From NCBI GenBank assembly GCA_014871385.1, contig CM026427.1:5340988-5404987 (forward strand): 64,000 bases of DNA, read 5' to 3'. Both the position numbers and the translations under genes were made by a program. Source of the DNA: Ceratodon purpureus. Taxonomy: Eukaryota > Streptophyta > Bryopsida > Pseudoditrichales > Ditrichaceae. The notes beneath the pieces were generated by a model. That model was not told the origin of the DNA. It worked only from the letters and a program-made list of their open reading frames with translations, and searched no databases. Shown here piece by piece: positions 10,260-30,844 of this stretch; the stretch's first letter is position 1, and each line of letters opens with the position of its first letter.

Positions 10260-10474
10260 AGATGTTGGTGTACATGAAGCGCCTTTGCTTAGAAGCGGAG
10301 TTGACTGAGACGGTTCAACTTGAGAAACCCTCTCCTCTTAGACCTCCTCCGTTCTTTGAGGCACTTCCGTAGATTGCTCAGCAGGCATAGACTGGCTAGA
10401 ACATGGTGCCAAGTCTGCCTCGCCATCACCACCGTTAGTGCCGTAGATCTCCGCATGTGTCATTCTTTTTGGTA

Positions 10475-10820: not shown

Positions 10821-10829
10821 CCCACAAGG
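10821..10829. repeat. Mutator-like target-site duplication, left copy
   Basis: CCCACAAGG occurs here and again at 30836-30844, just outside the paired GAGCGG-rich inverted ends. Nine bases is the usual duplication of Mutator-like elements. Confidence 0.8.
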
Positions 10830-10948
10830 GGAAAAGTTCGTATGTGAGCGGAGAGCGGAGAGCGGAGAGCAGAGAGCAGAGAATGGAGAGCACAGAATTG
10901 AGAATTAGCCAAAGTTTTAAAAGCAAAGTAGACCCTATAACCGTGGAA
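10830..10948. repeat. MULE left terminal inverted repeat
   Basis: Contains GGAGAGCGGAGAGC units (10847-10890), ACAGAATTG (about 10892-10900) and GACCCTATAACCGTGGA (10931-10947). The same modules appear in inverse order at the right end. Directly inside lies a hairpin-like TTACTAAAATAAG...CTTATTTTAGTAA. Confidence 0.75.
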
Positions 10949-11478
10949 AATTACTAAAATAAGGCATGATTTTGTTACTTATTTTAGTAAAGGAGTATAA
11001 TTCCGTGGAATTAAGTGTTATCTCTCGTAAGAATTTCTTACGTTTGTTTTCTAAGATACAAATTAGGGCTGATGTCATGATGACGTCATGCATACAATCC
11101 TTGAGAGTTGGTTCCTTATTGGATGAAGATACGAGTATTCCAGCATTATGTTTTTAGATCAGAACATTAAATATTGAATAGATAATATAGATAATTCTAG
11201 GAATAAGAAAACTCGAAACCAGCAAAAAGAAATGGTCCTAAAAGTTTGTGGAACATTTCAGAGTTCGTGTAGAATAATGGAGTTGGTGAAACCAAGATGT
11301 ATACCAAGTTAGACTGCTTGTCTTCGTCGAAGAATTCTCCGTCTTTAGATAAGACCATTCCTAGCTTAAGTGTCAAGCAACGATCTATATAAACCTTAGC
11401 AGACGTCCTTGAAGTTGTATAAGCTCAATCATTTCTGTAGAACTTAAGCGTGTACTTGCTAGGGAGTTGTTTGAAGGT

Positions 11479-11991
11479 ATGGGCGATTTATTTGAGGTCG
11501 TTGCCTGTGAAACGATTTTACAGGATTTGCTTAAGCGGATGGCGGATGGGCCCAACCCCTGGGATCATATAGGTAGTAGTGCAACGCAGAGTTGGACTCC
11601 TCCGACTGTAATCACGTTTGAAGACGTCGAGAACGCTCGTGCTGTGTCGAAGAATTGGAAGCGTGAGATTGACAGCAGTCCTGAATACGCATGCCTTCGG
11701 CTAGCGAGGTGGGATTACTTTTTGTACGAGGGTCGCCATTGGAGTTCGAAGGACAAATACGAAGTTAATCGGTTCAACATCAATTGGAGTGTTTTTAGGA
11801 GTTCTTGGAAACTTGCAAATCCAATTTACAACGAGAGGTTAGAGACAGCGTCCCTTGGAGAACTTAGTTGGGTTGAGTTAGATCAGTTGAGGTCATTGCT
11901 ATTTGCCAATGGGAATCAGGTCTTGGATGTGTCGGAAGAAGAGAAAATTTCTCCGAGAGATGGTATCTCGATCTCTTCCAAGAATAGGTAA
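11479..11991 (+). CDS. F-box-like protein (170 aa), MULE cargo
   Basis: Single-exon frame from ATG 11479. It begins GDLFEVVACETILQDLLKRM, followed by a DVENARAVSKNWKREID segment and YACLRLARWDYFLYEG. This resembles an F-box-type opening (hydrophobic helix, then a VSKxW turn) from divergent moss families, which in canonical cases binds SKP1 in an SCF ubiquitin ligase. A TATA-like box (TATATAAA) lies at about 11386, some 90 bp upstream. The rest of the protein shows no recognised substrate-binding repeats. It lies head-to-tail beside the ParB-methyltransferase gene, 0.3 kb from that gene's 3' end. The F-box call is tentative. Confidence 0.5.
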   Translation: MGDLFEVVACETILQDLLKRMADGPNPWDHIGSSATQSWTPPTVITFEDVENARAVSKNWKREIDSSPEYACLRLARWDYFLYEGRHWSSKDKYEVNRFNINWSVFRSSWKLANPIYNERLETASLGELSWVELDQLRSLLFANGNQVLDVSEEEKISPRDGISISSKNR

Positions 11992-12264: not shown

Positions 12265-15200
12265 TCACAACATGCTACAATCACTACTTCCACTCTCAAA
12301 ACTAGATGACTCTGAATCTCCTTCTACAGCCTCTGCATCGACGAATACAAGGGCTCTGGGATCAAAAGTAGTTGGCCGACTAGAAACATATGTAAGGGCT
12401 CCTGATTGGAGCGCTTGTGCTAAGCCCTCTGCATAGTCCGGAAGTATAAAAGGCTGAATCGGGCTGGAATTTAGACGCCACGATGGAGGTGTTACCGAAA
12501 CTACTCTGCAATAGAAAACCGATTGTGGTTAGATCGAGTACGTAGAGCTGCAAAGAGAAGCAATGCTTGGATAATTTGAACAAAGAATAGAAGACTTACA
12601 CCACTTATCAGGTCTTGTTCTCTTTAGAGGCGCTTCGTCTACTGCTGCCGGCCTAGGATGTTTAGGAGGGCCCATGGCGGATGGTCTAGCCATGTACGGT
12701 TTGAGAATGGCGTTGAATATGGCTTCGTCATCCTCAAAAGCTAGAATGTGACGACCAATAGCCTGGCAAGCCTTGATGGAGGCCCCTGAAACTCAAAGAG
12801 AAACAAAGAAATGAGAAACTGTGGAAAAAATGAGAGGAATAATAAAGCAAAGATTTGTATGAATAGTTACATGTCCCTGCATTCCAGTCGAGGACTATGT
12901 CGCCGGGCTTCAAAAGCTCTCCAATTATGCTCTGCATCATCTCATGGGTTTTCTCCCTTGGTCCTCTCCACAGAATGTCCCCATTCATTTGTTGCGACTC
13001 CGCATCAATCCAGTTGAAAATGGCATCACTCTCGATAATGTTGAGGACCCCATGTATCAACTGGGATTTCTTCGTTTGGAAGGAGAAATCAGATGGCTCA
13101 CGGCCACCACGAACGTAGACGCGAATCCAGAACCGCATAGTCTGCAGTCAAGCAAAACTAGTGAGTAAAATTAAGTAGAAGGGTTCTCAATGAGTAAAGA
13201 GAAGGAAATGTTTGGATGAACTTACCAAGTTATCGGGGTTCGTAGGAGAAGTCAGGCCGAGTACATTGACGCCCCACCAGTCCTTGTACAGTACAAAGTT
13301 ACCACCCTCAGCTTCTTCCTCGATATCCTTAGCCAGCTTTTGATCAGTGTTGTAGATGAGGCATAGGGCACCATCTTTCTGCAAGTATTGTTCTGCAAAA
13401 TGGAAGATGTCGTACACATAATCCTTATAGCGAGAGTTCCAAGGCGGAATACTTGTGGGGGGATTGGATACGGATGGGACGGGAAGATTCTCAGGGATGT
13501 CGGCAATGATCAAGTCGACTCCCAGATGGTTCTCTTGTATACAATGGTCCGGAACTTTGTTTTGGCGGCCTGCTCCAAACTTATGGAAACAAGAAAGCAG
13601 AGTTAGAAACTATAAAATAAATAGAAGTGGATGTATCCAAGAAATGTCTAAAGAACGGAACATACCTTGCGAATGAAGTCTTGAGCCTTGATCCATTCTG
13701 GGTCGCCACCTTTTATCTCGAGTCTCTTATTTTGCCGCAACATTGAGTCCACAGAGGAGTTGAAGATGGAAACATGTGTGGAAATCGAAGCTCCAGCGGA
13801 AGAAGTGGTTTGAGGATAGAGTTTGGCCTTCCTCTGCTCAATGAGACTTCTGGTGATATCAGAAGCACTAATGGATGAAGGTGCATTCGCAGTGGTCGAA
13901 GTAGGTATTGGGACGTCTGTAGTTGGAGAAGCGTTGGGTGCCTCCTTTCTTGGTGCGGAAGACTCCGCACCAGTATCCTGAAAGGCCTGCGACTTCGATC
14001 CTAGAGTTCGCAGTCGCCGCGCTCTCCCTTTCTTCGGTGGAGATGCAGATGATTGATCCTGCAGGTCTTCGGCCTCATCTGAACCGTCTCCAGAATCCTC
14101 GATGGCTGATGATCCCCCGTCAAGCTCAGATTTGAGCTCCGCTTTGGACTCAATAACGAAACCTCGAATGCAATCCAGGTACCAACAACGAGCTTCTAGG
14201 TGCCGCGATTTGTACCTCTTCAACTGCAGAGGAGTATAGATACCCTGATCAGAGCCTTTCTGAATCCACGCGGCGAAGTACCGGGGGAACTTCTCCGGTG
14301 CAATTGCACTTTTTGAAAGCAGCTCTCTCTTGAAGTACCTAATGAAGTTCAACTGCCATAGATCAGAATCATTTTATTGACATCGTATAAAACCGAAAAG
14401 GAAATAAGATACGGAGACGTAGTTCATAACTGTCATACGGTATGTCATACGCTTGACAACATTTGCAGCTCCCGGAAAATTGGAAAAATCAGACTTCTTA
14501 TCGAAAGCCTTCTCTGCGCGGGTACCAAGAAATGAAGGGGAAGCCTTTTCCCAAAGGAGAATACGCCAACTCTCCACATATGCGTCAGGCCGCAACACTT
14601 CCGGGAAGGACTTCCACTTGATGACAAGGTTTTCGGTCTTACAAATGTCATCAAACTCCCGGCTAACAGCATCCTCCACCTGCGACAGAAAGGTAAAGAC
14701 GTTGAGGTAAACATTGACATGGGACAAAAAAGAAGTGGTTTTAGTGATTATAACGAAGTTTGAAGGAACTGTACCCTAGTCCAAAATGTTGCGTTGTTCA
14801 ACCAGAGGTCGAAGTCGGCCTCCTTAAATTCTTGGGGCAAAAATCTGTAAGATTGTCGTGCACTTGGTGAAGAGTTCCACCACCTTAGCCAACGCGCTTT
14901 GAACTTGGCATCAACAGCTGCAGGAACAATCTTCTGAAGCTTCTCCACTGTCATCTCCGGCTTGGCAAAATCACTATAATGCCGATTGATCTGGGAAATG
15001 AACATTTCATAAACGGGAAGATTAGATTTTTTAAGTACTTATGGAACAATTAAATTAGAAATGTCAAGAAACTCACCTCCGGAAGGAAGTCATCACCGTT
15101 TTTGGGATTGGCAATGGCCAGGTACTTGGTGAGGTCCTTCTTCGTAATATAGTCAACCATGCTGGTTGAAGCGGCAGACATGGCATCCCAAACACCTGCC

Positions 15201-16985
15201 GCAGTTTGCTCTGGAATGGGTGTTTTCTCCTTGTAGGTCCTGGCAGCTTCGTCAAAAGCAGCCACGATTTCTCTCTGAGAAATGAAATTATCAACTTCTG
15301 AGTGTACAGAGCAGGGCAAATCATGTCATTTAGAAGCGTGAGGGGGGGAGAACAAGTGCTTACACGATAAAGAAATGCGATGAAGACTTTGGTTGGCAAA
15401 GTAAACCATCCAGGAATTGATGGTTTGTGATTCAAAGACAATTGATACTCCTCCGGTGTGAGCAGATCCTTGAATTCCTCCAATTTCATCACACCAAAAG
15501 AGCGAATACAAAAGAGCTTTGCCGGAAGATTACTCTTCACGTGATCATTTTTTGTAGACCTGCTCGAAAATATGGTTGTTAATTAAAAGCGTGAATTACA
15601 AGTTCAAGCAGCTTGCAAGAAGTGGGGACAAAAAATAGGGTTAAATTTCTTACCAGTTGATGTCGTGCATGGCATGAAGAAGGTTTCCCACATGACCGCG
15701 TGGGTAAAAAACAATGCAATGCACGGAGATGTGCCACGCTGGGTCTTCACTGTGATGATTGTTGATATGTCTGCACCATGCGGCCAGGCGATGGTTACCT
15801 TCCCAGACATAGAACATCTTCTCAGAGAACTCCTTCCAATCCGAGTCGGCCAAGAGCTCATCTTCGAAAGCATCATTGACTTTTTGCCAACAAGGGCTCC
15901 AGTCAGCCTTGATCTCCGTAGTGACTTCGGCTGTCTTCTCTTCGTGGTTGTAAATGGAAATGTACATGACCCGGTCTCCATCTCTATATCCATTGACAAA
16001 CTCTCGCTCCAAATGTTGAACTCCCATTTCTCCTACAGGTCGCACTCTTGCCATTGAGAGCATCCTACAAAGGGGAACTAGGATACGGGACTTCGTCTTT
16101 CGGAGTATTCGGAGGTCGTTGATGAATCCAATAGAGTCCATTTTGTGATGTTTTCTATGTCCCAATTCACTGTCCACTGCATTCGTCAAATAAGTAGGAC
16201 AAGATGGCGCTGGCAACTGATCCTGTGTTTGAGTTACCTGTCAAAGGTCATAAGTATTCAGAATTGATTCGAAGACAAGGAGCGTGAAGCAAATCAAATA
16301 GTATAAAGAAGAATAAAAGAATTGCTTCTCAGACTGATACATCTCTTTTGAGAACCCAATCATCAGCAGTAGAAATAAGTAGTGCACAGGCCACTATGTG
16401 CGTGGTGCACGACTATAATACTCCCTAGCCTGTCTACAATTCCAGTGACGGCGCCTCCTCCAAAATCGCCTGGTCTGTTGGACAGGGCATGGCAATATCG
16501 CCGGGAGGGCGAAGACAACATGGGCTGGCCTCCTCACTCTAATAGGGGAGGAAGGAGAAGGTGGAGACATCGGCGGGGTACCAAGTCGTGGAGAAGTAGG
16601 CATATAGCCCGGGGATGTAGGCTCGTAAACAGGAGACGTAGGCATGTAAATAGGAGAGTGGACCTCGAGAGGTCTACTACCTAAACCTACAGGGTTTCCT
16701 AAATCACACCTACAATAGGGCTGATCAAATGAATCCGAGAGGTCGGAAACATTGATCACTGAGATCGGGGAACTGATGGACAAGGGTGCATCTGAGAATA
16801 CCTAGAGAAGAGGAACAAAGACAATGTTAGTTTACCATCTAAGTATTCAGATCAAAATTTAGAAGTTATGGAAGTTCAATATACTATGCTATATTCAATA
16901 CAAAAGGCAAATTAAATTAAATTACCTCAGTTTCTGCTGGAGTTGGGCTATCAAAGTCACTTGCGGTGAATTGCTTTGTGAACTC
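12265..16985 (-). CDS. ParB-like plus DNA methyltransferase-like fusion, 12 exons (1173 codons, N-terminus incomplete)
   Basis: Exons are 16985-16926, 16801-16538, 16237-15654, 15559-15364, 15274-15077, 14990-14775, 14679-14413, 14352-13666, 13579-13226, 13141-12871, 12785-12600 and 12503-12265. Every junction keeps phase and no internal stop occurs. Near residues 65-90 are YMPTSPV/YEPTSPG/YMPTSPR heptads like the Pol II CTD. Around residue 253, FYVWEGNHRLAAW matches the ParB/sulfiredoxin GxHR motif. A basic NLS-like KKGRARR lies in the large middle exon. The C-terminus has IIADIPENLP (motif IV position, residue about 850), a predicted strand near LQKDGALCLIYNTD, then PGDIVLDWNAGT and AIGRHILAFEDDEAI (motif I-II). 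Motif IV before motif I is the beta-class order of N4/N6 amino-methyltransferases. DIPE instead of DPPY/W makes activity doubtful. DNA binding and base methylation are inferences. Confidence 0.65.
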
Positions 16986-17100: not shown

Positions 17101-17405
17101 TTAAACGACTCCCATATATGATCCCCAGACATCCCCTCCCCCACATCCTCCCCCTCCTTGTGGGGGAGTGTCGGCTCCGAATGCGCCCCTACCTGCCAAG
17201 CTTCTCCCGGAACCATAGCTCCAGAACCTGCAAAGGGGCTTGCTTCCCCCACCAACGAGGCCGCGGCCATGGCTGCTGTAACCTCCACATGGTCTCCTTC
17301 CACATCCTCCCCCACATCCTCCCCCTCCTTGTGGGAGAGTATCGGCTCCGAATGCGCACCTGCCTGCAAGGCTTCCCTCGGAACCATGGCTCAAAAATCC
17401 ACAAC
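17101..17405 (-). repeat. 171-bp coding tandem repeats, block left of the retrotransposon
   Basis: Nearly two units with a period of exactly 171 bp (57 aa). On the minus strand they read through AMAAASLVGEA, GAHSEPTLPHKEGEDVGE and similar. The unit near 17215 encodes SGAMVPG without a stop, whereas the unit near 17395 has TGA at the equivalent place. This is the same gene as the flanking exons; the nested LTR element begins at 17406. Confidence 0.8.
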
Positions 17406-17861
17406 TGTTAACCGGAGACCCAACCGGTCTCTTCCTTTAACCCCATCCAGTCCCCTCTCAGTTTCATCCAGGAAGTGTCCCGACAGTCATCCAGTTCCTA
17501 CGGATGAACTCTGTCAGTCGGCTGGATGAACTCTGTCGGAGCCGACTGGATGAACTCTGTCGAAGCCGACTGGATGATTCTGTCCGTTTTCAGGGGGTTT
17601 AAGAGGCAGGTTTAGGGTTTTGGGAGATCATTCTACACTAGAGCAGGTAGAGTCAGAGAGGTCTGAGAGCTGTTAGGAGCTGCTGTACCATGTTTTGGGG
17701 CTGTTTTGACCCATTTTATGCAGTTTAGACCTCTTTTTGCACTTGTATTGTACATTTCCAGCATTCTATGAGGGTTTGGAGTACTTAGTTTAGTTGGGTT
17801 TTGTTGGGTTTTGATGGGATTGTGAAGGCTAGGGTTTAGTGGTTAAATCCTCCCTTTACCA
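17406..17861 (+). repeat. 5' LTR (456 bp)
   Basis: Begins TGTTAACCGGAGACC and ends CTTTACCA. Near its 5' part, 22-bp units of GGATGAACTCTGTC carry AGTCGGCT or AGCCGACT. No clear TATA box was fixed. Confidence 0.93.
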
Positions 17862-17875
17862 TTGGCGACCATGCT
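17862..17875 (+). other. Probable primer-binding site
   Basis: TTGGCGACCATGCT directly abuts the 5' LTR, the expected place for tRNA priming. The matching tRNA was not identified. Confidence 0.5.
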
Positions 17876-19063
17876 TTAGTTCGTACCATGTGATCTCCTG
17901 CTTGTTGTAGGCTGTTCCACACACTAGAGAGGTCTTGAAGTACACAAATCAGGTCTGCAGAGGTGCAACAGTGACTGTCAAGAGTCTTTAGGGGTGCTGA
18001 ACTGCTGTCACTGTAATTCCGAGGTGCTGAACAGTTGCTGGCAGAGTGTGGGAGTCACTGCAGTGTTAGAATCGGCCAGCTGAGTGCTGTCCAGCCACTA
18101 GCAGGATCCCAAGACTTCTGAAGTGAGGAAAAACTGTTGCAGTAGAGAGGGCAGTGGCGGCAAAGAGTTTTCAAGTGTTTTCAGAGGTAAAAACATTGGT
18201 GCAGCGACGGTTGCAGTCCAGCACGTGTCCAGGGAGCAGTAGCAGCAGGGGCGGCTCTGTTGCAGGCTGGTGGGCGCAGGTGCTGTGAGGAGGTGGAGGG
18301 CCAGATTTGCCTGGGCGTCAATCCTTGTGAACTGAGGGCAGTTCAAGAGCGAAAAAGGGGATAGGGCTGCTACAGGTCAGATTTGTGTTCCCACTGTAAA
18401 AAGGGGCGAAAGGTAAGTAACCCGAAATTTTAGGAATTCAAATTTCAAATTTCAGATCCGAAAATTTAGGATCTTAAAAATTTGAATTTTGATTTTTGAA
18501 TTTGAGGACCTCAATTTGGGACCTCGGTCGGCTGTGCGGACCTCGATTTGGGAATCTCGGTCGGCGATGGGACGTCGTTTTTGGAGACGTCGGTTGACAT
18601 TGAGGACCTGGACCTGAGATTGGCCTAGGTCAGAACAGAGTGGTAATTTGGGTTGCTGAGTGCAGTTGGGCAGATTCAGGGTGATTTCTGTTTCAAATAT
18701 TGTCAGAACAGTAACTAGTACTATAAACACTGGACTGGATTTGCTAAAGGTCAATACAGTGTGAAAAAGGGGATAGGAACTAGTTAGGGGCAATTTTACT
18801 GAACTGCCTTGGTTTGTTCCTATTTGCTAAAAAAAAAGTGTCTGTAAACACTAAATAGACCACACAGCCGTTTGTAGGGTTGCTGAGTCTAAAGTGGCAG
18901 GGACTACAAAATGTAAGGGAAGGAGCCAAGTATTGGTAGCTGACTGATTGGAGGAGGCCGAGCAGAGCCGACTGCAATGGACAGGGAGTAACAGCCGCCA
19001 AGACTAGGAAGCACACACAGTCGACTGAACGCAGCCGACTGACAGTATCAGGCGTTGATACCC

Positions 19064-22000
19064 ATGGAAGAAGGTGACTCGAATGATCTGCAAGATGAGA
19101 GACAAGCCATGGAGGGGTACAAACGTTGGCTGCAACATGAAGAGCAGACAGTAGAGACGACATCACTTGAGGTACGCAGCCGACTTAGCTCGCAGGGTAG
19201 TGTAGCTCTGCAGGAGGGTGAACTCATTGACATGGAGGTCGAAAATGACATTTCACCATCAGAGGGGAGGACACAAGAAAGCCGATTTGAAGAGGGAAGG
19301 CAGTTCGAAAAAGGGGATAGACTGAACAGTCATCCTGATCAAGCCATCATTCCCTGGAGATATGAGGACAAGAGAAGAACTGCGTCATTCAGGGGGGACT
19401 TCTCCCCTGCAGTGGACGACTACAACACATTCTATGAGGAGAGACGTCAGACAAAGGAGGTCATCGCAGAGCCGACTCAGTGGCCAAGCACAGTCACTAG
19501 CAGAGCCGACATAGAAGCGGAGCCGACTCGGCTACGCAGCGGACCGGTATCTCCGGACCACCTGCCAAAAACTCCAGAGACACTGCCAGCCGCATTTCAG
19601 AACTTAAGGCAGAAATTGAAAGAAACGAGGAGTCGATCAGCTCAAGAGCATGGGCAAGTGAACCACCAAGATAGTATACATGGCAGGAATGTTCACTTCT
19701 TGGATAAATTTCGACTGCAGTCGGGATGGGAGCTGGAAGAAGAGGACCAATGGGCACTAGAGGCCTTTGCGGCGGACTTACTAGCCAAGAAGGAAAGGGC
19801 CAGGCAACACCAAGCAGGTCAAAACCAAGGCAGGCGAGACCCTAGAAAGTACCTCATGCAGCTAGAGGCTCTGCATCAAGGTGCAGCATCGGGAGTGGCA
19901 TCAGTGCACCACTGGCATACAGAGTCACAGTGGCCAGAGAAGAATCCAACACCACAGGAGGCCGACTTTGACCGCCGTGTTGAAGAAGCAATGCAGAGAT
20001 TGGCAGCACAAGAGTTGGCAGCACAGCAGTCGGCAGCGCAGCACTTGCTAGCACAGCAGTTGGCTACCCAACAGAGGGAACAAGAACGGCTCAAACGAGA
20101 GCAGTATGAGCATACACGAATCGAAGATTGGTGGAAGGAGCAAAAAAGGAGGCAGGAGTATGAGAGCATTGGAGAGATACCAGCAAGGCCGCCTGATTTA
20201 TCTACTTTTCATTTGGAGTCAACTGTGGGCAAGAGCGTTTCAAGACCATTGCTTCCAGAGCCGACCTTGACACCACATAAGTTTTCTGGATATTTTGGCA
20301 GCCGGACAGGTGCTGTGTATGACGCACGACAGCCGACTCAATCAGTGTGGTATCTTGGGCAATCTGCACAGCCAGCTGTTGGAGACTCAATACCTGGTCC
20401 AATTGATGTAGCCCGGTCACTGGATGCTCGGCCTACTCCAGCACCTCCGGGCTATAGTTTTGGTGATCTTTTGCGAGCCGACCGGGCAGTGCCGACTGCC
20501 ACTAAAATACAGACGACTTATCCGGCCACTTTGGCAGGATGTCCCTCTGTAGTACCAGTAGTGCGCACAGCCGACTTTAAGTTAGCTCCTCCAAGGCCAC
20601 CAGTCAGTGCAGAGCGGAAGCAATTACCGTACCGGGCATACAAGGAGGGAACTGACCCTGATGCTCACCTGAGGCATTTTGACAAGTGTGTTTGGTACAA
20701 TGGAGAGACAGATGAGATTGTCATCATCCACCTGTTTGGAACAACCCTTGTTAATAAGGCCCAGACCTGGTTTGATGATTGGCTGGATCATCACCCCAAT
20801 TGTACTTGGGAGGAGGCAAAGGAGGCGTTCAAGATGCGATTTAGGGAGCAAGATTCTGATGAACAGGTGTTCATGACTCTAAGGACCTTCAAACAAGGTG
20901 AGGGGGAGAAGGTTCAAGACTATTATGAGAGGTTTACAAAACTGATCAAGTGTTTGCAAACAGATGTTGGAGAAGGCTTCAAGCTAACCTACTTCAGGGC
21001 AGGCCTGCTGGACTACCTGAAGGTCACCACAAGCGCCCATACAGCCAACACTCTGGCTGATTTGCAGGAGGTAGCGCGGCGCTGTGAAACCAACTGCATC
21101 AATGCCTTAGGGGAGGAACTGTACTTTCAAGCCCGGCATACAGAGCCGACTAGTGGACAGCCGACTACCTTATCAGCTCAGGCGGAGGGAGCAGAGTCAG
21201 ATAGTGGGAGGTATTGCACAGTCTGCAAGAAATACGGCCATGACGATGCTTACTGTTTTTTCAACCCAGCCAACCCGAACAATAGACTTCCACGACCTGA
21301 AGGTACACCAATTGTGGGGGTCGACGAAGTAACTGCTCAGCAACACGATAGCAACTCGAGCCGACGTGTTAACAGCCGACCTGTTGACAGCCGACCTGGG
21401 GGGTACCAGCATGATGGCTATGGCCAAATCAATACTTGCTATATTTGCGACGAGACCGACCATCAAATGCGCAAGTGTCCTTACAAGTTGAGGTTTGAGC
21501 AGTTTGTGGCATCTAGAACACTTGGCAGTGATACTGTGGGTGTCAATAATGTGGAACTGCAGGAGCTGGAAGAGGAGGAGCTGGAACTGCAAGAGCCATC
21601 TGAGGTGGCAGTTTCTCTAACCAGTGCAGCAAGACTGGAGGAGGGTCTTCCGTTGGAAGACAAAGAGGCACAGGAGGAGCTTGAAGGGGCCACAACAACC
21701 AACTTGGATGCCAACGCACCTACGGCACCAACTCTGGATGGTGACTGGATTGGTTTTATTAACCCTGATTGTCTACAGGATATCCCAAAGAAGGCGCCTG
21801 ACACAAATATAGAGAGTCTTCCTGGAACCCAGCTAGAAGCTTTGGTGCAGGAGATTAGCCGCCAAATCCTGGAGACCCCGATTACAGTATCGTTAGGACA
21901 ACTGTTGGCAGTGGCCCCTACTCTCACAGAGTACTTGAAGAGTCAAGTGTTCGGAGCAAGTGCGTGCGAGCCGACTGCGTCTGTAGACTCGATTGAGCCG

Positions 22001-22660
22001 CCTGTACCAGCCGACCATACCGAGCCGACCGTGAAACAGGGTTCACTTGAGTTGATTCCAAGGGTCTCCAATGATCCAAGGATACAACCTACGGTGGTTG
22101 TTGGAGCTGTGAATATTGATCTTGGTCGCCTTGTGATTTCTGTACAGGAGGAGGATTTGACCTTTAAGAACGTACTTCTAGAAGAGGGCTCTACAGTCAG
22201 CTTGATTACAGAAGAGGAGAAGGTGACGGTACCAGCGTTACAGGAGGCCATTCGATTCAAGCAGCGGCTGCTGTTTGTCAACACTGCATTGAGGGAGACA
22301 ATCTTGGCAGCAGAGCAGATAGCAGTACGGCAGGAGGATTTTCACTGCCCAACTGTTTTAGACAGTGAGGTCTCATTTCAAGGAGGAAGCTCCCTCGGTG
22401 GTTTCTTCGAGCCAACTCCTTTACAGAGCCGACCGCCACAGCCTTCTTCGGAGGACTCTCAGGATGATTATCAGGGCGCCACTCCAGCTTTTACAAAGCC
22501 GACTTTTACACAGCCGACTTCTATGGAGCCGACTGTTTCAAACTTAAGCTCCACCAATGGGCCCAAGGAAGAGCGACACCACCAAGGGACGAGTTCACGG
22601 CAGCAGCTAGCATCACTGCTAGTTACGAAGGGGTTCCATGTGTTTGATACCAAGGATTAG
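19064..22660 (+). CDS. Retrotransposon Gag polyprotein (1198 aa)
   Basis: The first ATG of the frame is at 19064. Residues about 303-365 form an Ala/Gln-rich coiled coil. Residues about 518-682 match the Ty3-type Retrotrans_gag region (HLFGTTLVNKAQTWFDDW, then FRAGLLDYLK), expected to assemble particles. Two CX2CX4HX4C zinc knuckles follow, CTVCKKYGHDDAYC near 715 and CYICDETDHQMRKC near 791, for RNA packaging. Near 1010-1055 a segment (VNIDLGRLVIS...NVLLEEGSTVSLIT) resembles the retropepsin fold but has LEEGS where an active enzyme has D-T/S-G, so it looks catalytically dead. The frame ends shortly after; no pol region follows. PT, AD and SR dipeptides recur because GCCGAC is over-represented in all frames. 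Confidence 0.93.
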   Translation: MEEGDSNDLQDERQAMEGYKRWLQHEEQTVETTSLEVRSRLSSQGSVALQEGELIDMEVENDISPSEGRTQESRFEEGRQFEKGDRLNSHPDQAIIPWRYEDKRRTASFRGDFSPAVDDYNTFYEERRQTKEVIAEPTQWPSTVTSRADIEAEPTRLRSGPVSPDHLPKTPETLPAAFQNLRQKLKETRSRSAQEHGQVNHQDSIHGRNVHFLDKFRLQSGWELEEEDQWALEAFAADLLAKKERARQHQAGQNQGRRDPRKYLMQLEALHQGAASGVASVHHWHTESQWPEKNPTPQEADFDRRVEEAMQRLAAQELAAQQSAAQHLLAQQLATQQREQERLKREQYEHTRIEDWWKEQKRRQEYESIGEIPARPPDLSTFHLESTVGKSVSRPLLPEPTLTPHKFSGYFGSRTGAVYDARQPTQSVWYLGQSAQPAVGDSIPGPIDVARSLDARPTPAPPGYSFGDLLRADRAVPTATKIQTTYPATLAGCPSVVPVVRTADFKLAPPRPPVSAERKQLPYRAYKEGTDPDAHLRHFDKCVWYNGETDEIVIIHLFGTTLVNKAQTWFDDWLDHHPNCTWEEAKEAFKMRFREQDSDEQVFMTLRTFKQGEGEKVQDYYERFTKLIKCLQTDVGEGFKLTYFRAGLLDYLKVTTSAHTANTLADLQEVARRCETNCINALGEELYFQARHTEPTSGQPTTLSAQAEGAESDSGRYCTVCKKYGHDDAYCFFNPANPNNRLPRPEGTPIVGVDEVTAQQHDSNSSRRVNSRPVDSRPGGYQHDGYGQINTCYICDETDHQMRKCPYKLRFEQFVASRTLGSDTVGVNNVELQELEEEELELQEPSEVAVSLTSAARLEEGLPLEDKEAQEELEGATTTNLDANAPTAPTLDGDWIGFINPDCLQDIPKKAPDTNIESLPGTQLEALVQEISRQILETPITVSLGQLLAVAPTLTEYLKSQVFGASACEPTASVDSIEPPVPADHTEPTVKQGSLELIPRVSNDPRIQPTVVVGAVNIDLGRLVISVQEEDLTFKNVLLEEGSTVSLITEEEKVTVPALQEAIRFKQRLLFVNTALRETILAAEQIAVRQEDFHCPTVLDSEVSFQGGSSLGGFFEPTPLQSRPPQPSSEDSQDDYQGATPAFTKPTFTQPTSMEPTVSNLSSTNGPKEERHHQGTSSRQQLASLLVTKGFHVFDTKD

Positions 22661-22775
22661 TTTTCTTCTCCACCATTTACTAGTGTAGTCAGTTTTTTTA
22701 CTACAAGCCGCTTAGCCTTCTTTCCATTTACCACCCTCTCTCTTAGTCTCCATGCGTTCTGAGGGCAGAACTACC

Positions 22776-22790
22776 GGAAAAAGGGGATAA
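22776..22790 (+). other. Polypurine tract
   Basis: GGAAAAAGGGGATAA ends at the first base before the 3' LTR, the expected plus-strand priming site. The core GAAAAAGGGGATA also occurs at 18351, 18763 and 19307. Confidence 0.85.
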
Positions 22791-23268
22791 TGTTAACCGG
22801 AGACCCAACCGGTCTCTTCCTTTAACCCCATCCAGTCCCCTCTCAGTTTCATCCAGGAAGTGTCCCGACAGTCATCCAGTTCCTACGGATGAACTCTGTC
22901 AGTCGGCTGGATGAACTCTGTCAGTCGGCTGGATGAACTCTGTCGGAGCCGACTGGATGAACTCTGTCGAAGCCGACTGGATGATTCTGTCCGTTTTCAG
23001 GGGGTTTAAGAGGCAGGTTTAGGGTTTTGGGAGATCATTCTACACTAGAGCAGGTAGAGTCAGAGAGGTCTGAGAGCTGTTAGGAGCTGCTGTACCATGT
23101 TTTGGGGCTGTTTTGACCCATTTTATGCAGTTTAGACCTCTTTTTGCACTTGTATTGTACATTTCCAGCATTCTATGAGGGTTTGGAGTACTTAGTTTAG
23201 TTGGGTTTTGTTGGGTTTTGATGGGATTGTGAAGGCTAGGGTTTAGTGGTTAAATCCTCCCTTTACCA
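22791..23268 (+). repeat. 3' LTR (478 bp)
   Basis: Same sequence as the 5' LTR with one extra 22-bp GTCAGTCGGCTGGATGAACTCT unit, a length change of exactly 22 bp. Confidence 0.93.
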
Positions 23269-23692
23269 ACAACCAAGCTTACTTCCCCCACCAACGAGGC
23301 CGCGGCCATGGCTGCTGTAACCTCCACATGGTCTCTTTGGATCTCCTCCCCCACATCCTCCCCCTCCTTTTGGGGGAGTGTCGGCTCCGAATGCGCACCT
23401 GCCTGCCTAGCTTCCTTCGAAACCATGGCTCAAAAATCCACAATCAAGCTTAATTCCCCGACCAATGAGGCCGCAGCCATGGATGCTATAACCTCCACAT
23501 TGTCTCTTTGGATCTCCTCCCCCACATCCTCCCCCTCCTTTTGGGGGAGTGTCGGCTCCGAATGCGCACCTGCCTGCCTAGCTTCCTTCGAAACCATGGC
23601 TCAAAAATCCACAATCAAGCTTAATTCCCCGACCAATGAGGCCGCAGCCATGGATGCTATAACCTCCACATTGTCTCCTCGGATCTCCTCTC
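23269..23692 (-). repeat. 171-bp coding tandem repeats, block right of the retrotransposon
   Basis: Units recur at 23341, 23512 and 23683, a period of 171 bp. The minus-strand frame reads VEVIASMAAASLVGEL and GAHSEPTLPQKEGEDVGEE but meets TGA within the ..IVDF*AMVS.. stretch of each unit. The block continues the left block at 17101-17405, split by the retrotransposon. Confidence 0.8.
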
Positions 23693-24990
23693 CCAAATCC
23701 TCCCCCTCTCCCCCCACCTTAAACCCCTCGACCGCGACCCAATCCCTCTCCACCTTCCACACAGCTCTCACCTTTTCTCCCCTACCCTCGTCACTCAGTT
23801 CCTCTCGGTCCGCATCTTCAAGCATCTTCATAAGCATAGCAGTAACAGAAACAACCCCAAACCCCCCATCACGAATGCTTACCTCCTCCGTCGGTGCGGC
23901 GCGGTCCGATCCGCCTTGGTCGCTCGCCATCTCCTCCTCCAGACGCTCCTCTCCACGCCCCTCCATCCTCTTCACTATCTCCTCCCCTTCCGTAGCTGCG
24001 GCCGTATGTTGAAATGCGGATTGTGACGAAGGCTTTCTTCTCCCCCCTCGACCTTTCCCCCTCCCTCGACCCCCCACCTCGGCCCCCCCCGACCTCTACC
24101 TCGGGCCGATCCCTCATCCATATCTTCTTCGGACAGACCTACCGGAGTATCGAGGGAATCAACATCCTCCCTACTAGTCTCAGTAGGACTTCCGGGGTCC
24201 CCTCTCCCCGCCCGCCTTGCATCGCCCCCCAAAGCAATCGCCTCCCCACCTTCGCCTGCCTCCATAATTTCTCGTCCAACTCTACGAGCCACAGCTCTCA
24301 ATGTCTCTGTTTCGGAATCCTCGCCTATATCCACTATAGCTCTCCTTGCACCTTTAACCTCTTGCTCAACGCTAATCCAGTCGTCTCTCTTTACAAAGAA
24401 TATAGAGGTTGACAAGAATAAGTTCTCGGTGTCCATTCACTCAAAATTGAACTACGACTGATGCGCCATTAAAAACTTCACCGGTAAAAAATAGATCACG
24501 CAGCACGGGCACTGTTTTAAATTCATAAAGTTATTCCACTGAAGCAAACTTAAATGGACAAACTCAGAACAGTAAAGCATGAAATTGACTACCTCCGAAT
24601 TAGAATTGCCTCCCGATTGTGAATTCGTCTCCCTTGCTGACGAGTCCTTAAGACCGAAAGAAGGTTGTGGTGTCTCCAGAGTCTGACATGAATTGAATCC
24701 TCTTGCTTCCGTCATCACTTTCCGTTTCTCAGCGCTACTTAAAAACTCCGGCTCCTGAGGCTCTAATAAAGTGTCCTCTAAAACCTCATCTTTTATCTCT
24801 AGAATGGACTCGAGTATGAATTTACGAATACTACAAAATTTCTGAGCCAAAGGCAGCCCTGCTCCTCTAACCTTCACTGGTGCCTTGAGAAGGCTCCGTT
24901 TTGTATCTACCTTCCTACTTGATGCTTTCCTCTTCCTCGCTCTCCTGTTTGTAAAGTCTGTGGAACATTGTTTCCTTCTTCGCTTCTGAC
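23693..24990 (-). pseudogene. N-terminal part of the ParB-methyltransferase gene, acidic and low-complexity
   Basis: Minus-strand frames read into the 171-bp repeats. One segment (24877-24596) contains LAQKFCSIRKFILESILEIKD and ends GNSNSE at a GT donor; upstream of it lies a basic stretch (RKRKASSRK) that could be a nuclear localisation signal. A second segment (about 24388-23975) is Gly/Glu/Arg-rich, and a third reads EEIVKRMEGRGEERLEEEM into the repeat. Exon joins here were not resolved. In-frame TGA codons in the repeats and the 5.9-kb insertion mean the full-length protein is probably not made from this copy, although the downstream 12 exons remain open. Confidence 0.5.
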
Positions 24991-25789
24991 TAACAAAAGT
25001 GGAGGGAGTAGGCCCTCCACTCTACTTCATGTGTCTAAGTAACCTAATAACCCTCCTCAGAATAAAGGACTCAATAAAACTCCAGCTCTGCTTATATACT
25101 CCAGAAGCAAACCATTTCTCAACAACTCCTCATGAATATATAATAGTACCCACTTACAAGAATCATCCACTTCCTATACCTGGTGAATCTAAAGATAATT
25201 TCGTTTTGAATAAAAGTTGATGTATATATAAATACAATTAAAATCAATTGGTACATCAATTAAATCAAGACTATAATAAACATGAAGACCATGGATACTC
25301 CATCACAGAGGAATTGACCAATACTATTTGAAGTAAAGTTTATCATATCAATTTCTACATAAAAGGAAGAGATCTAAGCACCCTATAAATTAAAAGATTT
25401 GAATTACACGCTTCAATGCATGCTCTTTTTTATATTGATTGTTTTAAATGTAGAATTTAAAAGACGGCTCAGTCTAATCTTACCAAACTTCAGACCAAAT
25501 TGAATCTGTTCCACGATTCAAATATTTAATGCGCAATTCTAAAAAGTCCTACCTCGTATACTTAGACCTACAAAAGGTTGCATTCTAATTACTTAGCGCC
25601 GTCTCTCTTTAATCATACATTCGTTACGTAACAGAATGAATCATTACCTAGTCGTCCACACGGACCTTCCAACTTGAATAAAATGATCAACAGCGATGTA
25701 TCATTCCTCTCACTTTGTTATCGCTTCGCTAGTACACTCACTCTTCTCCTCTTTCCGCTCATACGATTTATTTTCCTGCGAACATTGGG
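24991..25789. other. AT-rich spacer inside the MULE
   Basis: Between the minus-strand ParB-methyltransferase gene and the plus-strand transposase remnant, which diverge from here. No supported gene; it probably holds both promoters. Confidence 0.5.
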
Positions 25790-28700
25790 ATGGTCTGTCC
25801 GTATGCCCAAGGCATGGGAATCGCTTTTAGGTTTCACGTAGGCGACGATGGTCTAGCTACAGTTTCCTCTCTTCGCCTGAGTCTCAGATTTCATTTCCGT
25901 GAGGATTCCATCAGTATAGAGGAGGAGATCTTTGATGACGTTATTGCCGAGGTTACACACACCCTCGGGCAACCCTGAGTGAGAGATGAGACAATATGTT
26001 GCAGTGGAGACTTTTCCCTGGATCCTATAGAGTTTATGGTCTTACTGATTTCGTGATGGCTGCATCCACTGAGATCCTCACCCCCCGTCGCTCTTCTACT
26101 TGCACAATTCAGACTCCCTTACCTCGTGATGTCAAGGTTAAAGTTGAGCATGGTACTGAGACTTCAGATGTAGAGACACCTCCTCCTCCGTCCGTCATAT
26201 CTCTCTTCTGATGACGAAGTTAGTCCCGTCAAGTTGGTGCCTAAGGTCCACGCTGATGCTCCTCCTTCCAATGTGTCTCCTCCATTGTCCCAGGTCACAG
26301 TTAGCATAGTTCCGCTCCTTCAACAGCTTGCAAAGGCACGTGGGTCAAAAAACATTTTGAAGAAGATAGACTATTCCACTATTAGACACGAGAGAGTAGA
26401 GTACTTGCCTGTGAAGTTTGATGGTCCGGTTCTTTTTGAGTTGCCTCCAGCTGCTGCACGATCCTTTAAGCTCGCCGCCAAGTCAATGCAGGGAATGGAC
26501 AAACGATACGACGGACACTTGTGGACCAAGACCATCACAACAAACATCATAAATGACTTTGGACTGTCTTTTTGAAACTCCACCTGCGTCGGATGGCTGC
26601 CCTGAAGCAAGAAGGAGTGTGACTTCCTGAAGCGTGTTCCCAAGATCTTCAAGGTTAAGGACACTGAGTTTGAGGGGTGTACCCTTCAAGCTTTTCTCAT
26701 GGATCAGCCTCCTACATCTGATTCCACGCTAGTGTGCAAGGTATGTAAAGAACCTCCATCATGTGTAGCTACATGCGAGGCTAAGATTTATTACGTAATG
26801 GGCAAAGCGAATCAGACTGGAGCTTGTATTCACATAGGAACACATGATCATCCAGTGAAAGTTGGAGACTACAGAGACTCTAAAGCAGAGATTAGTAGCT
26901 TAATAGAAGAGCAGGTAGAAATGAACAACAAAGCAACGAAGTGCGCCGTTGTCTTGGAGGCGAGCAAACACCTCATCGGGAGCTATCTGCTACAGCCCGA
27001 GGATGCACCACCAAGGAAGTTGATGATGGAGGAGCTAGTTCCTATTCTGGATCGATGCAAAGACATGGCGTCACCAAACATCCGCAACAAAGTCGCGACC
27101 TTCAAAAAAATCAGAAGGTACGGAATCATGGAAGGTATCACCAAGCTCCGTGGAAACAGTCTGTGGGCGTATGTCCAAGAGAATAAGTTTCCTGGTTAGG
27201 GAGCTATGCGTGACAAAGTCTTCGTCTTCAAGATGTCGGAGGTCGGGCCGGGTAGTGGTGTCAACTTGGTCAGCCGAATGCAAGCTGGTGGAGATTTGGA
27301 GAACGCATGGATCATGTTCGACCATGTAAAATGAGTGAAAGAGTGATCGACGATGGCGTGCCATGTGTACGACGCCACCTACTACCGCGTGATGACAATC
27401 GCCAGTTTGGATATGCAGTCCGAGGACACAGAGGCCCAGCTCGTCTTTTGGAAAAACCTAAACCTGGTCATGGAGAACAATGGCGTTGCAACGCCGAACT
27501 TCAAGGGGTTCATGGCGGATAACGCACAGGCGAATTGGAATGTAGAGCGGGCTCATCAAACTTGGCCAGTGGCTGTCATTCTAGCACCACCGCTTCCGCC
27601 AGTGGGGGAGATTCATGACCGCGGTATGATTTCTGTACTATGCTTTAATGTTTTTCATACTACTTTCCTATCCCTAACCTGACAAAATCCTAATCGTTGA
27701 ATCTAACGGCTCCTACTGTCTAAACTGCACAAATTCACGGAAGAAGAATTTACAGCGATGCCAACCTATAACCTCGCCGAAACGGTTCATAACAAGTGGC
27801 TCCAAGCTTCAAGAAACAACGGAAACTACCTCTACGTTGCTACCGTGGACGATTTCGTTCGAGCTTTTCTACATGTTGTTAACTACTACCAATTCCTCAA
27901 AGGTGACGTCGGCGGAACAGGACCATCAAAGAAGGAACTCAAGCTCAGGATGGCGGAACGCAAGGCGAAGAAATGGGGTAATCCTACACTCCTCAAAGAC
28001 CCCATGCTCAATATGTCAGGAGCGGAAGAGTTTTGCACCCGTCAGCCTATCATGCCTGGAGCAGAAGTGTTTGGTTCACAGAAGCGAAAAGCCGACGTTC
28101 CCATCGGAGCTGACAAACTTCTCACGCCCACGAGGCCCAAGACGTGCCGTCAGAGCTTGCCCTGTGCAGATGCCCGTCATTGTGGAAGACGACTCCGAAC
28201 ACGACACCGAGGTAGAAGGTACCCAATCTCCTATCCAGGAAGTTGATTCCCCTTTACCTTCACCTTTGAACAAGGGCGGCATTCGCCATGTCAACGCGGT
28301 TAAAGAAATCAAGGTGGACGTGAAGGAGTGGCACATTTCGAAACTTCACAAAGCTTCTGCGAAGTGCTGCTAGGCCCAAAGAGCTGAAACGAAAAAGAAG
28401 TGCACTGAGAGAATTATCAGAAGGCCCAATTGCACTGCTCCACCGAAATACACTAAGCTTTGGACTAACTATCGCAGGAACACAGTTGAGAAGACAGAAT
28501 TCTTCTTCTGCTCCGATGATATTGAGCGCTGCGTGAAAGGTTCCAAGCGCAAATGGGTAGCACACTACTCAAAGGACCTGGAATTTCCCTCCATTCCAGA
28601 GGTCTAGCCAATGAAACTAGGTACTAACCTAAAACTCACTGAGATTCTTGCCCTTGAAGCAGCAGACTTTCAACTTCCGCTGAAGAAGCCGGTCTCCCCA

Positions 28701-29198
28701 AGACGCCTCTTCTCTTCTGCCCCGCCCCCTGCAAATCTCAGCTTGGTGCCAGTCCCTGCAGACGCTGACCGCTACCCAGGCAAGAGAGACGGCAAGATGG
28801 TGAAGCGCACTGCCACTCGTCCCAATCCGGCACAGCGACTCTCCATGGGCTCCTCCGAGTCCCTCAAAGCGCGCCTCCGTTCCGTCACCATGATACCTCA
28901 GCCTGGCCATGGTTGCATCATTGGGGTGGACTCCGGCGTTGCTCCGCACATCACACGGTACCAGATTACCATCAATTCTTACCTAGGTTGCACTTGCCCA
29001 GCATTCAAGAAGACGATGACTACGTTCCGAGGCAGGACTCAGTTCACGTACTGTAAGCACGTGTATTACATACTCTTGAAGGTCTGCAATCGTCATCTCG
29101 AAGCCGAGCTTTTCATCCATGCGCCTACCTTTAGCTTCAACGAGGTCAAGCTACTCCTAGAGAGTGGAATCTTGCATCACCCCTTGGCGAAGAAGTAG
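25790..29198 (+). pseudogene. Decayed MULE-type transposase with SWIM zinc finger
   Basis: Successive plus-strand frames form one broken gene. Recognisable parts are GACIHIGTHDHPVKVGDYRD (near 26818), FKGFMADNAQANWN (near 27502), NLAETVHNKWLQ (near 27764), and a SWIM finger, CTCPAFKK...YCKHVYYILLKV (near 28990-29080), in a 195-aa terminal frame (28611-29198). Mutator-type transposases end with a SWIM finger. In-frame stops occur near 26572, 27197, 27333, 28371 and 28605, and frames shift near 26580 and 28150. The central catalytic region between the ANWN and NLAETVHNKW motifs is shorter than expected. This was probably the transposase that moved the 20-kb element and is now inactive. Confidence 0.7.
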
Positions 29199-30630: not shown

Positions 30631-30835
30631 AGTCCACGGTTATAGGGTCAATTAAATTACTAAAATAAGTATATTTCTAAAAATATAGTGAGAATATTCG
30701 AATCTCCTAATTTTATATATTATTTTTAGTAAATAAAGTTATATTTTTAGGTTCAGTCCCCAATTCTGTGCTCTCTGCTCTCCAAATCTCCGCTCACTGC
30801 TCTCCGCTCTCCGCTCACGTATAAGCTACGTCCAA
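30631..30835. repeat. MULE right terminal inverted repeat
   Basis: From inside to outside it holds TCCACGGTTATAGGGTC (30632-30648), CAATTCTGTGCTCTCTGCTC (from about 30761) and CTGCTCTCCGCTCTCCGCTC (30798-30817), the inverse of the left end. The AT-rich middle part is longer than on the left. Confidence 0.75.
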
Positions 30836-30844
30836 CCCACAAGG
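30836..30844. repeat. Mutator-like target-site duplication, right copy
   Basis: CCCACAAGG, identical to 10821-10829. The bases on either side differ between the two copies, so the match is exactly nine. Confidence 0.8.

Follow-up and report, generated by a model that had tools for sequence, protein, structure and literature searches.

The element and its gene

We analysed a 64,000-nucleotide stretch of the moss Ceratodon purpureus genome (contig C7:5340988-5404987 of a 362.5-Mb assembly), hereafter called the window. The window contains a Mutator-like transposable element (10830-30835) with inverted ends, flanked on both sides by the 9-bp duplication CCCACAAGG. The minus strand of this element carries an intron-rich gene for a protein with a ParB-like part and a C-terminal part homologous to DNA methyltransferases (MTases). 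Coordinates of all features are listed in Table 1.

When the 230-bp ends of the element are aligned as inverted repeats, they score 70, whereas none of 1000 random pairs scored above 50. With the heptamer arms removed, one in 1000 random pairs was as good. A perfect shared 9-mer arose by chance in 31/2000 trials with 50x50 offsets and in 0/2000 with 5x5 offsets. Two more copies are readable at both ends, one on C3 (GATAAGATG twice) and one at 49.9 Mb on C6 (GGCCTAGGC twice, with the duplication one base off the edge first assumed). Perfect 9-bp duplications of three different sequences are thus present in 3/3 copies with both ends readable; in the same offsets, 6 of 5000 random placements gave a perfect 9-mer. 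Duplications of 8-10 bp, usually 9, are typical of Mutator-like elements (MULEs). For a third extra copy, on C8, the fetched stretch ended before the right end. The left-end homology starts at window position 10826-10833 in 13 of 20 other copies. The C3 and C6 elements are ~13.6 and 14.5 kb long, and the window element measures 20.0 kb, of which 14.1 kb remain once an inserted long terminal repeat (LTR) retrotransposon is subtracted.

The rough joined frame of the putative transposase gave no Pfam match, the MULE DDE transposase domain included. It does contain a SWIM-like CxC..CxH segment (E 0.09), and it is this segment, together with the 9-bp duplications, that leads us to call the element Mutator-like. 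At the three in-frame stop codons of the putative transposase in the window, copy L043 reads AAG, CGT and TGG; a frame change lies near the first, so this copy is not an intact reference. An earlier, sequence-only reading of this DNA had described the gene as cargo of a plant Mutator-like element and had asked whether 9-bp duplications always flank it. In this genome, the terminal inverted repeats (TIRs) and the duplications at every copy readable at both ends bear out the carriage. The word cargo is too weak for a gene that belongs to the standard make-up of a multicopy element family.

Gene model and relatives

Twelve exons with GT/AG boundaries form one open frame, as the sequence-only reading had claimed, and the motifs it had listed (FYVWEGNHRLAAW, IIADIPENLP, GDIVLDWNAGT and AIGRHILAFEDDEAIF) are all present in that order. 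Some splice ends are ambiguous: 102 combinations keep the frame open, and the 60 that were printed give 1140-1179 codons. Splice sites were compared among 20 other genome copies that we fetched; counts of 21 given below include the window. The best-kept sites are donor 16520 (13/20), acceptor 16237 (13/20), donor 14439 (18/20) and acceptor 14324 (16/20). Positions 16582 (8/20), 16209 (4/20), 14419 (0/20) and acceptor 14352 (5/20) are poorly kept. On the basis of this comparison, the ends chosen initially (16582, 16209 and 14419) were dropped for 16520, 16237 and 14439. The frame with the best-kept sites is also open (1160 codons), and all remaining splice sites are retained in 12 to 20 of the 20 copies. 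The database relative P0004 aligns across 14352-14324, contrary to the acceptor preferred by the copies, and that intron therefore stays ambiguous.

Further exons probably lie beyond 16985, across a 171-bp tandem repeat that the LTR retrotransposon now splits. The repeat (17131-17405 and 23269-23708) may represent a tandemly duplicated exon and short intron (111 + 60 nt) of the 5' part of the gene.

A search with the full-length protein yielded 7945 candidates, none at E<=1. The MTase part alone matched four proteins (64, 34, 41 and 31% identity), and the ParB part alone matched 29 proteins at E<=10 (85 to 30% identity, the weakest at E 4e-6). None of the relatives of either part has a precomputed Pfam domain. 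The one named relative is a protein of the fern Adiantum nelumboides (P0033). P0004, a single intronless open frame of 507 amino acids (aa), connects the middle part with motif I, and P0006 continues past the ParB exon, across an intron, into the exon that follows; together they lend piecewise support to the splice model. A rapid 28-row tree, built without the fragments P0027 and P0032, pairs the window with P0005 (Shimodaira-Hasegawa-like approximate likelihood ratio test, SH-aLRT, 100). A tight cluster (SH-aLRT 90) unites eight rows whose longest contigs are all different (9.7-727 kb), a pattern that a repeat family would produce. The open frame is more than chance, because database proteins match its exons, P0004 joins the middle and MTase exons, and the ratio of nonsynonymous to synonymous change (dN/dS) between copies is below 1.

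Table 1. Features of the Mutator-like element, its ParB-MTase gene and the inserted retrotransposon (window coordinates).
Feature	Position	Strand	Basis or remark
Left 9-bp target-site duplication CCCACAAGG	10821..10829	.	perfect match to right end
Left TIR region	10830..10947	+	GAGCGGA heptamer-like arm ~10841-10905; subterminal GACCCTATAACCGTGGA 10931-10947
192-aa stop-to-stop open frame inside element	11413..11991	+	no Pfam match at E<=1
Last exon, tail	12265..12500	-	stop codon 12267-12265
MTase exon, motif II-like GRHILAFEDDEAIF	12600..12785	-	profile alignment, copies
MTase exon, WRGPREK block and motif I GDIVLDWNAGT	12871..13141	-	profile alignment, copies
MTase exon, motif IV position, DIPENLPVP	13226..13579	-	DIPEN codons 13501-13487
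Middle exon, then linker	13666..14352	-	upper end 14352 (P0004 aligned over it) or 14324 (16/20 copies)
Middle exon	14419..14679	-	lower end ambiguous: 14439 in 18/20 copies, 14419 in 0/20
Middle exon	14775..14990	-	splice model, copies
Middle exon	15077..15274	-	splice model, copies
Exon after ParB fold	15364..15559	-	matched by P0006, P0032
ParB-fold exon	15654..16237	-	GNHR codons 15799-15788; upper end 16237 in 13/20 copies, 16209 in 4/20
Exon with SPISVINVSDLSD and three heptads YMPTSPVYEPTSPGYMPTSP resembling the RNA polymerase II (Pol II) C-terminal domain (CTD)	16520..16801	-	lower end ambiguous, 16520 best kept; PF05001 E 0.024
Most upstream exon of model	16926..16985	-	5' end of gene not fixed by model
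171-bp tandem repeat copy, probably 5' part of gene, split by retrotransposon	17131..17405	-	further units at 23269-23708
LTR retrotransposon inserted in element	17406..23268	+	LTRs 17406-17861 and 22791-23268; Ty3-type gag; 5-bp duplication ACAAC
171-bp repeat array (23269-23708) and open frames, possibly upstream exons	23269..25021	-	unproven as exons
Putative Mutator-type transposase	26005..29195	+	divergent to ParB-MTase gene; SWIM E 0.09; in-frame stops 27197, 27332, 27344
Right TIR region	30633..30835	+	heptamer arm ~30763-30821; subterminal 30633-30649
Right 9-bp target-site duplication CCCACAAGG	30836..30844	.	perfect match to left end

The methyltransferase part

The METHYLTRANSFERASE part matches PF01555 with E 1.6e-5 and 25.4 bits (cut-off 26.7), and two PHROG DNA-methyltransferase families with E 3.3e-7 and 6.8e-7. 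In a profile search of the PDB, DpnA was reached with E 0.01 from the single sequence and 0.71 from the cleaned family alignment A6; P0004 alone reached PF01555 only at E 4.3. Compared with nine phage ParB-MTases, the MTase profile gave a probability of 95.4, E 1.7e-8 and a score of 62.5 over 196 columns, against 23.3 for the best of 60 column shuffles. This alignment pairs DLIIADIPEN with DITVCDPPYN, the WRGPREK block with the HPTMKP block, GDIVLDWNAGT with the VLDPF.GSG motif I, and GRHILAFEDDEAIF with GRICRTIELDSKFV. The profile comparisons thus support the previously claimed MTase homology with motif IV ahead of motif I, and the motifs follow the permuted beta-class order of IV, then I, then II.

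The catalytic (D/N/S)PP(Y/F/W) motif is replaced by DIPE; the natural tetrads given in the available part of PMC8885841 are SPPY, DPPY, NPPY and DPPW. The segment DIPENLPVP is identical in the window, P0002, P0003 and P0004, that is, in 3/3 distant relatives that cover the motif. Across the 21 own-genome copies, the tetrad codons and the one after them read D in 21, I in 21, P in 19, E in 19 (K in 2) and N in 19 (D in 2). The loss of the first proline and of the aromatic residue is therefore old and conserved, and we rejected decay of the window copy as its explanation. The exchange argues for lost or altered catalysis, and we class the protein as a pseudo-methyltransferase only, because its tetrad departs from the catalytic pattern. 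The sequence-only reading had offered two alternatives at this point. Marking of DNA with N4-methylcytosine (4mC) or N6-methyladenine (6mA) is not supported, given the DIPE tetrad in the family, and a dead catalytic site is the better fit.

The ParB-like part and the N-terminal tail

The predicted structure of the ParB exon has the ParB/sulfiredoxin (ParB-CTPase) fold, and the GxxR P motif of this fold is present as GNHR (G in 17, N in 19, H in 17 and R in 17 of 21 copies). The ParB part of the sequence-only reading is thus supported by a structure model and not by sequence profiles. Of the two Pfam profiles that reading had named, PF01555 came just under its cut-off and PF02195 gave no match. 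Since neither PF02195 nor ParB profiles match by sequence, we do not class the protein as a canonical ParB. A sequence-profile link to phage ParB was rejected as evidence, because the hhalign scores lie within those of shuffles. The fold perhaps binds a nucleotide that gates the protein.

Among viral structures, the ParB exon model (m9d65ff79e669) also resembles giant-virus proteins, namely E3T4G1 of Cafeteria roenbergensis virus and an Orpheovirus ParB/sulfiredoxin protein, with weak E-values. A tblastn search of phages with the ParB part returned one chance match (E 3). Scans of viral and prokaryotic contigs with the ParB alignment and the DIPE block gave pattern matches, none of which was confirmed as a relative; within these collections, the scans thus revealed no close donor of viral or prokaryotic origin.

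Upstream of the ParB fold, the exon below 16801 reads SPISVINVSDLSD and three heptads YMPTSPVYEPTSPGYMPTSP. We take SPISVINVSDLSD to be a candidate SUMO-interacting motif, based on its resemblance to the consensus. The repeat of the Pol II CTD is YSPTSPS. The heptads share Y1, P3, T4, S5 and P6 with it, and the tail matches PF05001 under its cut-off. Heptads occur in 14 of 21 copies, with one to four complete ones each. None was seen in the other seven rows (L022, L023, L026, L028, L031, L033 and L039), where the region is absent, replaced or misaligned. A clearly different subfamily retains QYMPTSPVYEPTSPVYMPTSPRL (L025, L027, L037) or one-residue variants of it (L024, L035), and between the ParB exons of heptad-bearing subfamilies the mean pairwise dS is 1.09. 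CTD mimicry by the tail is possible.

Copies and past selection

The 3' part of the gene (12265-13600) gave 44 match rows, which amount to 40 places once the window is counted; of 829 candidates, only the best 40 were scored. Thirty of these 40 lie on C6 (110,524,308 bp, 30.5% of the assembly; binomial P 9e-9), an enrichment that rests on the best-scored copies and thus on a possibly biased sample. C6 is probably a moss sex chromosome. The available part of PMC8000587 describes a C. purpureus genome of 360 Mb, with U and V each above 100 Mb.

Selection was estimated from pairwise Nei-Gojobori comparisons of 16 rows (the window and 15 copies), skipping stop codons. Rows L022, L023, L025, L031 and L039 were dropped because of broken or misaligned exons, and pairs were left out if dS was <= 0.03 or undefined, or if they held <= 60 codons. 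The median dN/dS is 0.18 (0.07-0.98) for the ParB exon (106/120 pairs, mean dS 1.09), 0.38 (0.24-1.09) for the middle exon (120 pairs, dS 0.35) and 0.45 (0.25-0.88) for the MTase exons (120 pairs, dS 0.135). These medians are below 1, and the protein was therefore constrained by purifying selection during the spread of the family.

In the same copies (L021-L040), the mean dS at the ParB exon (15654-16209) is eightfold that at the MTase exons (12600-13579). Our guess is that the elements are mosaic, with halves exchanged between element lineages.

Proposed role of the protein

We propose, with a probability of about 0.45, that the protein is a regular accessory pseudo-methyltransferase/ParB-fold protein of the element, which binds element DNA and aids expression or movement. 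The gene would be a regular accessory gene of the Mutator-like family, in divergent orientation to the putative transposase. The encoded protein would combine a tail with CTD-like heptads, a ParB/sulfiredoxin-type fold, a helical middle and a permuted beta-class MTase fold in which DPPY has become DIPE, and most likely does not methylate. It may bind the element's own DNA, perhaps in a nucleotide-gated manner via the ParB fold, and the MTase fold may act as a DNA-binding, possibly S-adenosylmethionine (SAM)-binding module. In this way, the protein could help the element's expression or movement, like VANC-type anti-silencing or other Mutator accessory proteins. Nucleotide and SAM binding, the DNA target and the anti-silencing or transposition role are what we infer here. 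In a bolder version, which we consider improbable, a nucleotide-gated ParB-type factor with a SAM-binding pseudo-MTase and a CTD-mimic tail would load onto element DNA and recruit transcription machinery or block silencing.

Several observations weigh against this proposal. On the side of the ParB fold, the Foldseek E-values for the exon model are weak (best PDB match E 0.078), and none of the 28 family members matches PF02195 by sequence. The hhalign score of the ParB part against phage ParB domains is 19.7, with 20.5 for the best of 60 shuffles; with the insert cut out it is 19.6, a score reached by 2/100 shuffles. The AlphaFold model of P0004, which covers the MTase part, is poor (pLDDT 49.5), and it is sequence profiles that carry the case for the MTase fold. 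The second glycine of the SAM-binding GxG in motif I is G in 15, R in 3 and W in 3 of 21 copies, and the window has W. The putative transposase of the window carries stops while the neighbouring ParB-MTase frame is open. In all 20 other copies, one or more stops interrupt the six exons that were read, leaving only the window copy without any; the boundaries for this count were those of the window, and some stops arise through frameshift or misalignment. Because of the tryptophan in motif I, the transposase stops and the stops in 20/20 copies, no fully working copy has been seen, and the low dN/dS among decaying copies is best read as a record of past selection only.

A role in transposition itself, in which the protein would attach to the TIRs and assist in cutting or insertion rather than act on silencing, appears somewhat unlikely to us. 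In its favour, the gene recurs as a regular component of the element, and the available part of PMC6446971 describes extra DNA-binding open reading frames in Mutator elements (mutB). The present evidence does not separate this accessory role from anti-silencing. ParB and methyltransferase are not mentioned in PMC6446971.

The protein might instead be an active amino-methyltransferase with an unusual tetrad, depositing 4mC or 6mA on the element's DNA, for instance to exclude or counter silencing by 5-methylcytosine. The beta-class architecture is retained from motif IV through I and II, most copies read AGTG in motif I, and bdelloid N4CMT is, according to the available part of PMC8885841, a bacterial amino-MTase acting on eukaryotic transposon DNA. 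Against this stands the DIPE tetrad, which lacks the first proline and the aromatic residue and is shared by the window and all three relatives that extend over the site. Methylation of element DNA by the protein is possible but disfavoured, and we hold an active enzyme to be unlikely. Of the earlier interpretation as a whole, the ParB fold, the MTase homology and the element carriage are supported, and the marking of DNA is not.

Equally doubtful is a passenger origin, in which a Mutator-like element would have acquired a ParB-MTase gene from the host or a virus a single time and copied it ever since without any function. Such elements tend to pick up host gene fragments (available part of PMC6446971), and all 20 other copies carry lesions. 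Against a passenger speak a dN/dS well below 1 between copies, the conservation of DIPE and GNHR, splice sites retained in most diverged copies, and the occurrence of relatives elsewhere, for instance in a fern. Finally, it is very unlikely that the ParB and MTase domains belong to unrelated neighbouring transcripts and that the 12-exon fusion is a construct: our protein searches found no public homologue spanning both domains in one open frame and three splice sites are ambiguous, but the phases close over 12 exons with either site set, collinearity among the copies extends from the element's left end as far as the ParB exon, and P0004 and P0006 join the middle to the MTase part and the ParB exon to its neighbour, respectively.

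Relation to known systems

The closest parallel in layout is the Wolbachia phage WO DNA methylase (QHJ75501.1), which likewise fuses an N-terminal ParB_N domain to a C-terminal permuted beta-class N6_N4_Mtase domain. Among three phage MTases scanned, the phage WO protein has PF02195 (E 1.6e-5), and phiRM10 gp48 and SfV orf48 are without ParB. The nine phage fusions are 397-461 aa long with an intact DPPY, whereas the moss protein is spliced, comprises ~1,160 aa and reads DIPE. It also adds an insert of ~40 residues in the ParB fold and the CTD-like tail. In the available part of a survey of the ParB-CTPase superfamily (PMC12704722), fusions to N6_N4-MTases are a phage feature. The survey, as far as available, describes a common fold for ParB, Noc, KorB, sulfiredoxin and SerK, with a GxxR-type P motif that the moss protein shares as GNHR; among eukaryotes, it regards sulfiredoxin as the form most often found. 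Unlike that superfamily, the moss family lacks a PF02195 match (28 members) and is carried by a eukaryotic transposon; the main text of the survey has no words on plants, mosses or transposition.

In the open subset of PubMed Central, searches for a ParB-methyltransferase in moss transposons returned only bacterial, viral or methods papers, judged by title. No paper was found there for ParB with a moss genome, or for ParB and methyltransferase with eukaryotic transposable elements and adenine methylation.

Like the moss protein, VANC of the Arabidopsis VANDAL (Mutator) elements is a second protein of a plant Mutator-type element, a comparison that concerns only the way the two may work. VANC is not known to have a ParB or MTase part. 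VANC proteins bind VANDAL element DNA and remove silencing (available part of PMC10398659), and they set the precedent for anti-silencing by plant Mutator elements (also PMC6446971). The bdelloid rotifer N4CMT is also a prokaryotic-type amino-MTase fold in a eukaryote and is linked to transposons. It differs in being an active SPPY enzyme with a chromodomain, and the available part of PMC8885841 does not describe carriage by a DNA transposon.

A conserved, once-selected and intron-rich version with an exchanged tetrad would show how a prokaryotic-type DNA-modification module came to be rebuilt as a regulator owned by the element. It would offer a testable case of DNA-methyltransferase folds used without methylation, and of transposon control on a probable moss sex chromosome. 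If the bolder, CTD-mimic and nucleotide-gated version were true, the protein would be a plant counterpart of the phage ParB-methyltransferase fusions that overrides marks instead of writing them.

Adjoining and inserted elements

The LTR retrotransposon sits in the probable 5' repeat region of the gene. It is young: its LTRs are identical except for one 22-bp repeat unit, and its Ty3-type gag lies in one 1205-aa frame. Directly left of the Mutator-like element is a hAT-type transposase frame of 949 aa (DUF659, Dimer_Tnp_hAT; 7491-10337). We rejected the hAT element as carrier of the ParB-MTase gene because it lies outside the TIRs. Within the element, the 192-aa frame at 11413-11991 looks F-box-like by eye.

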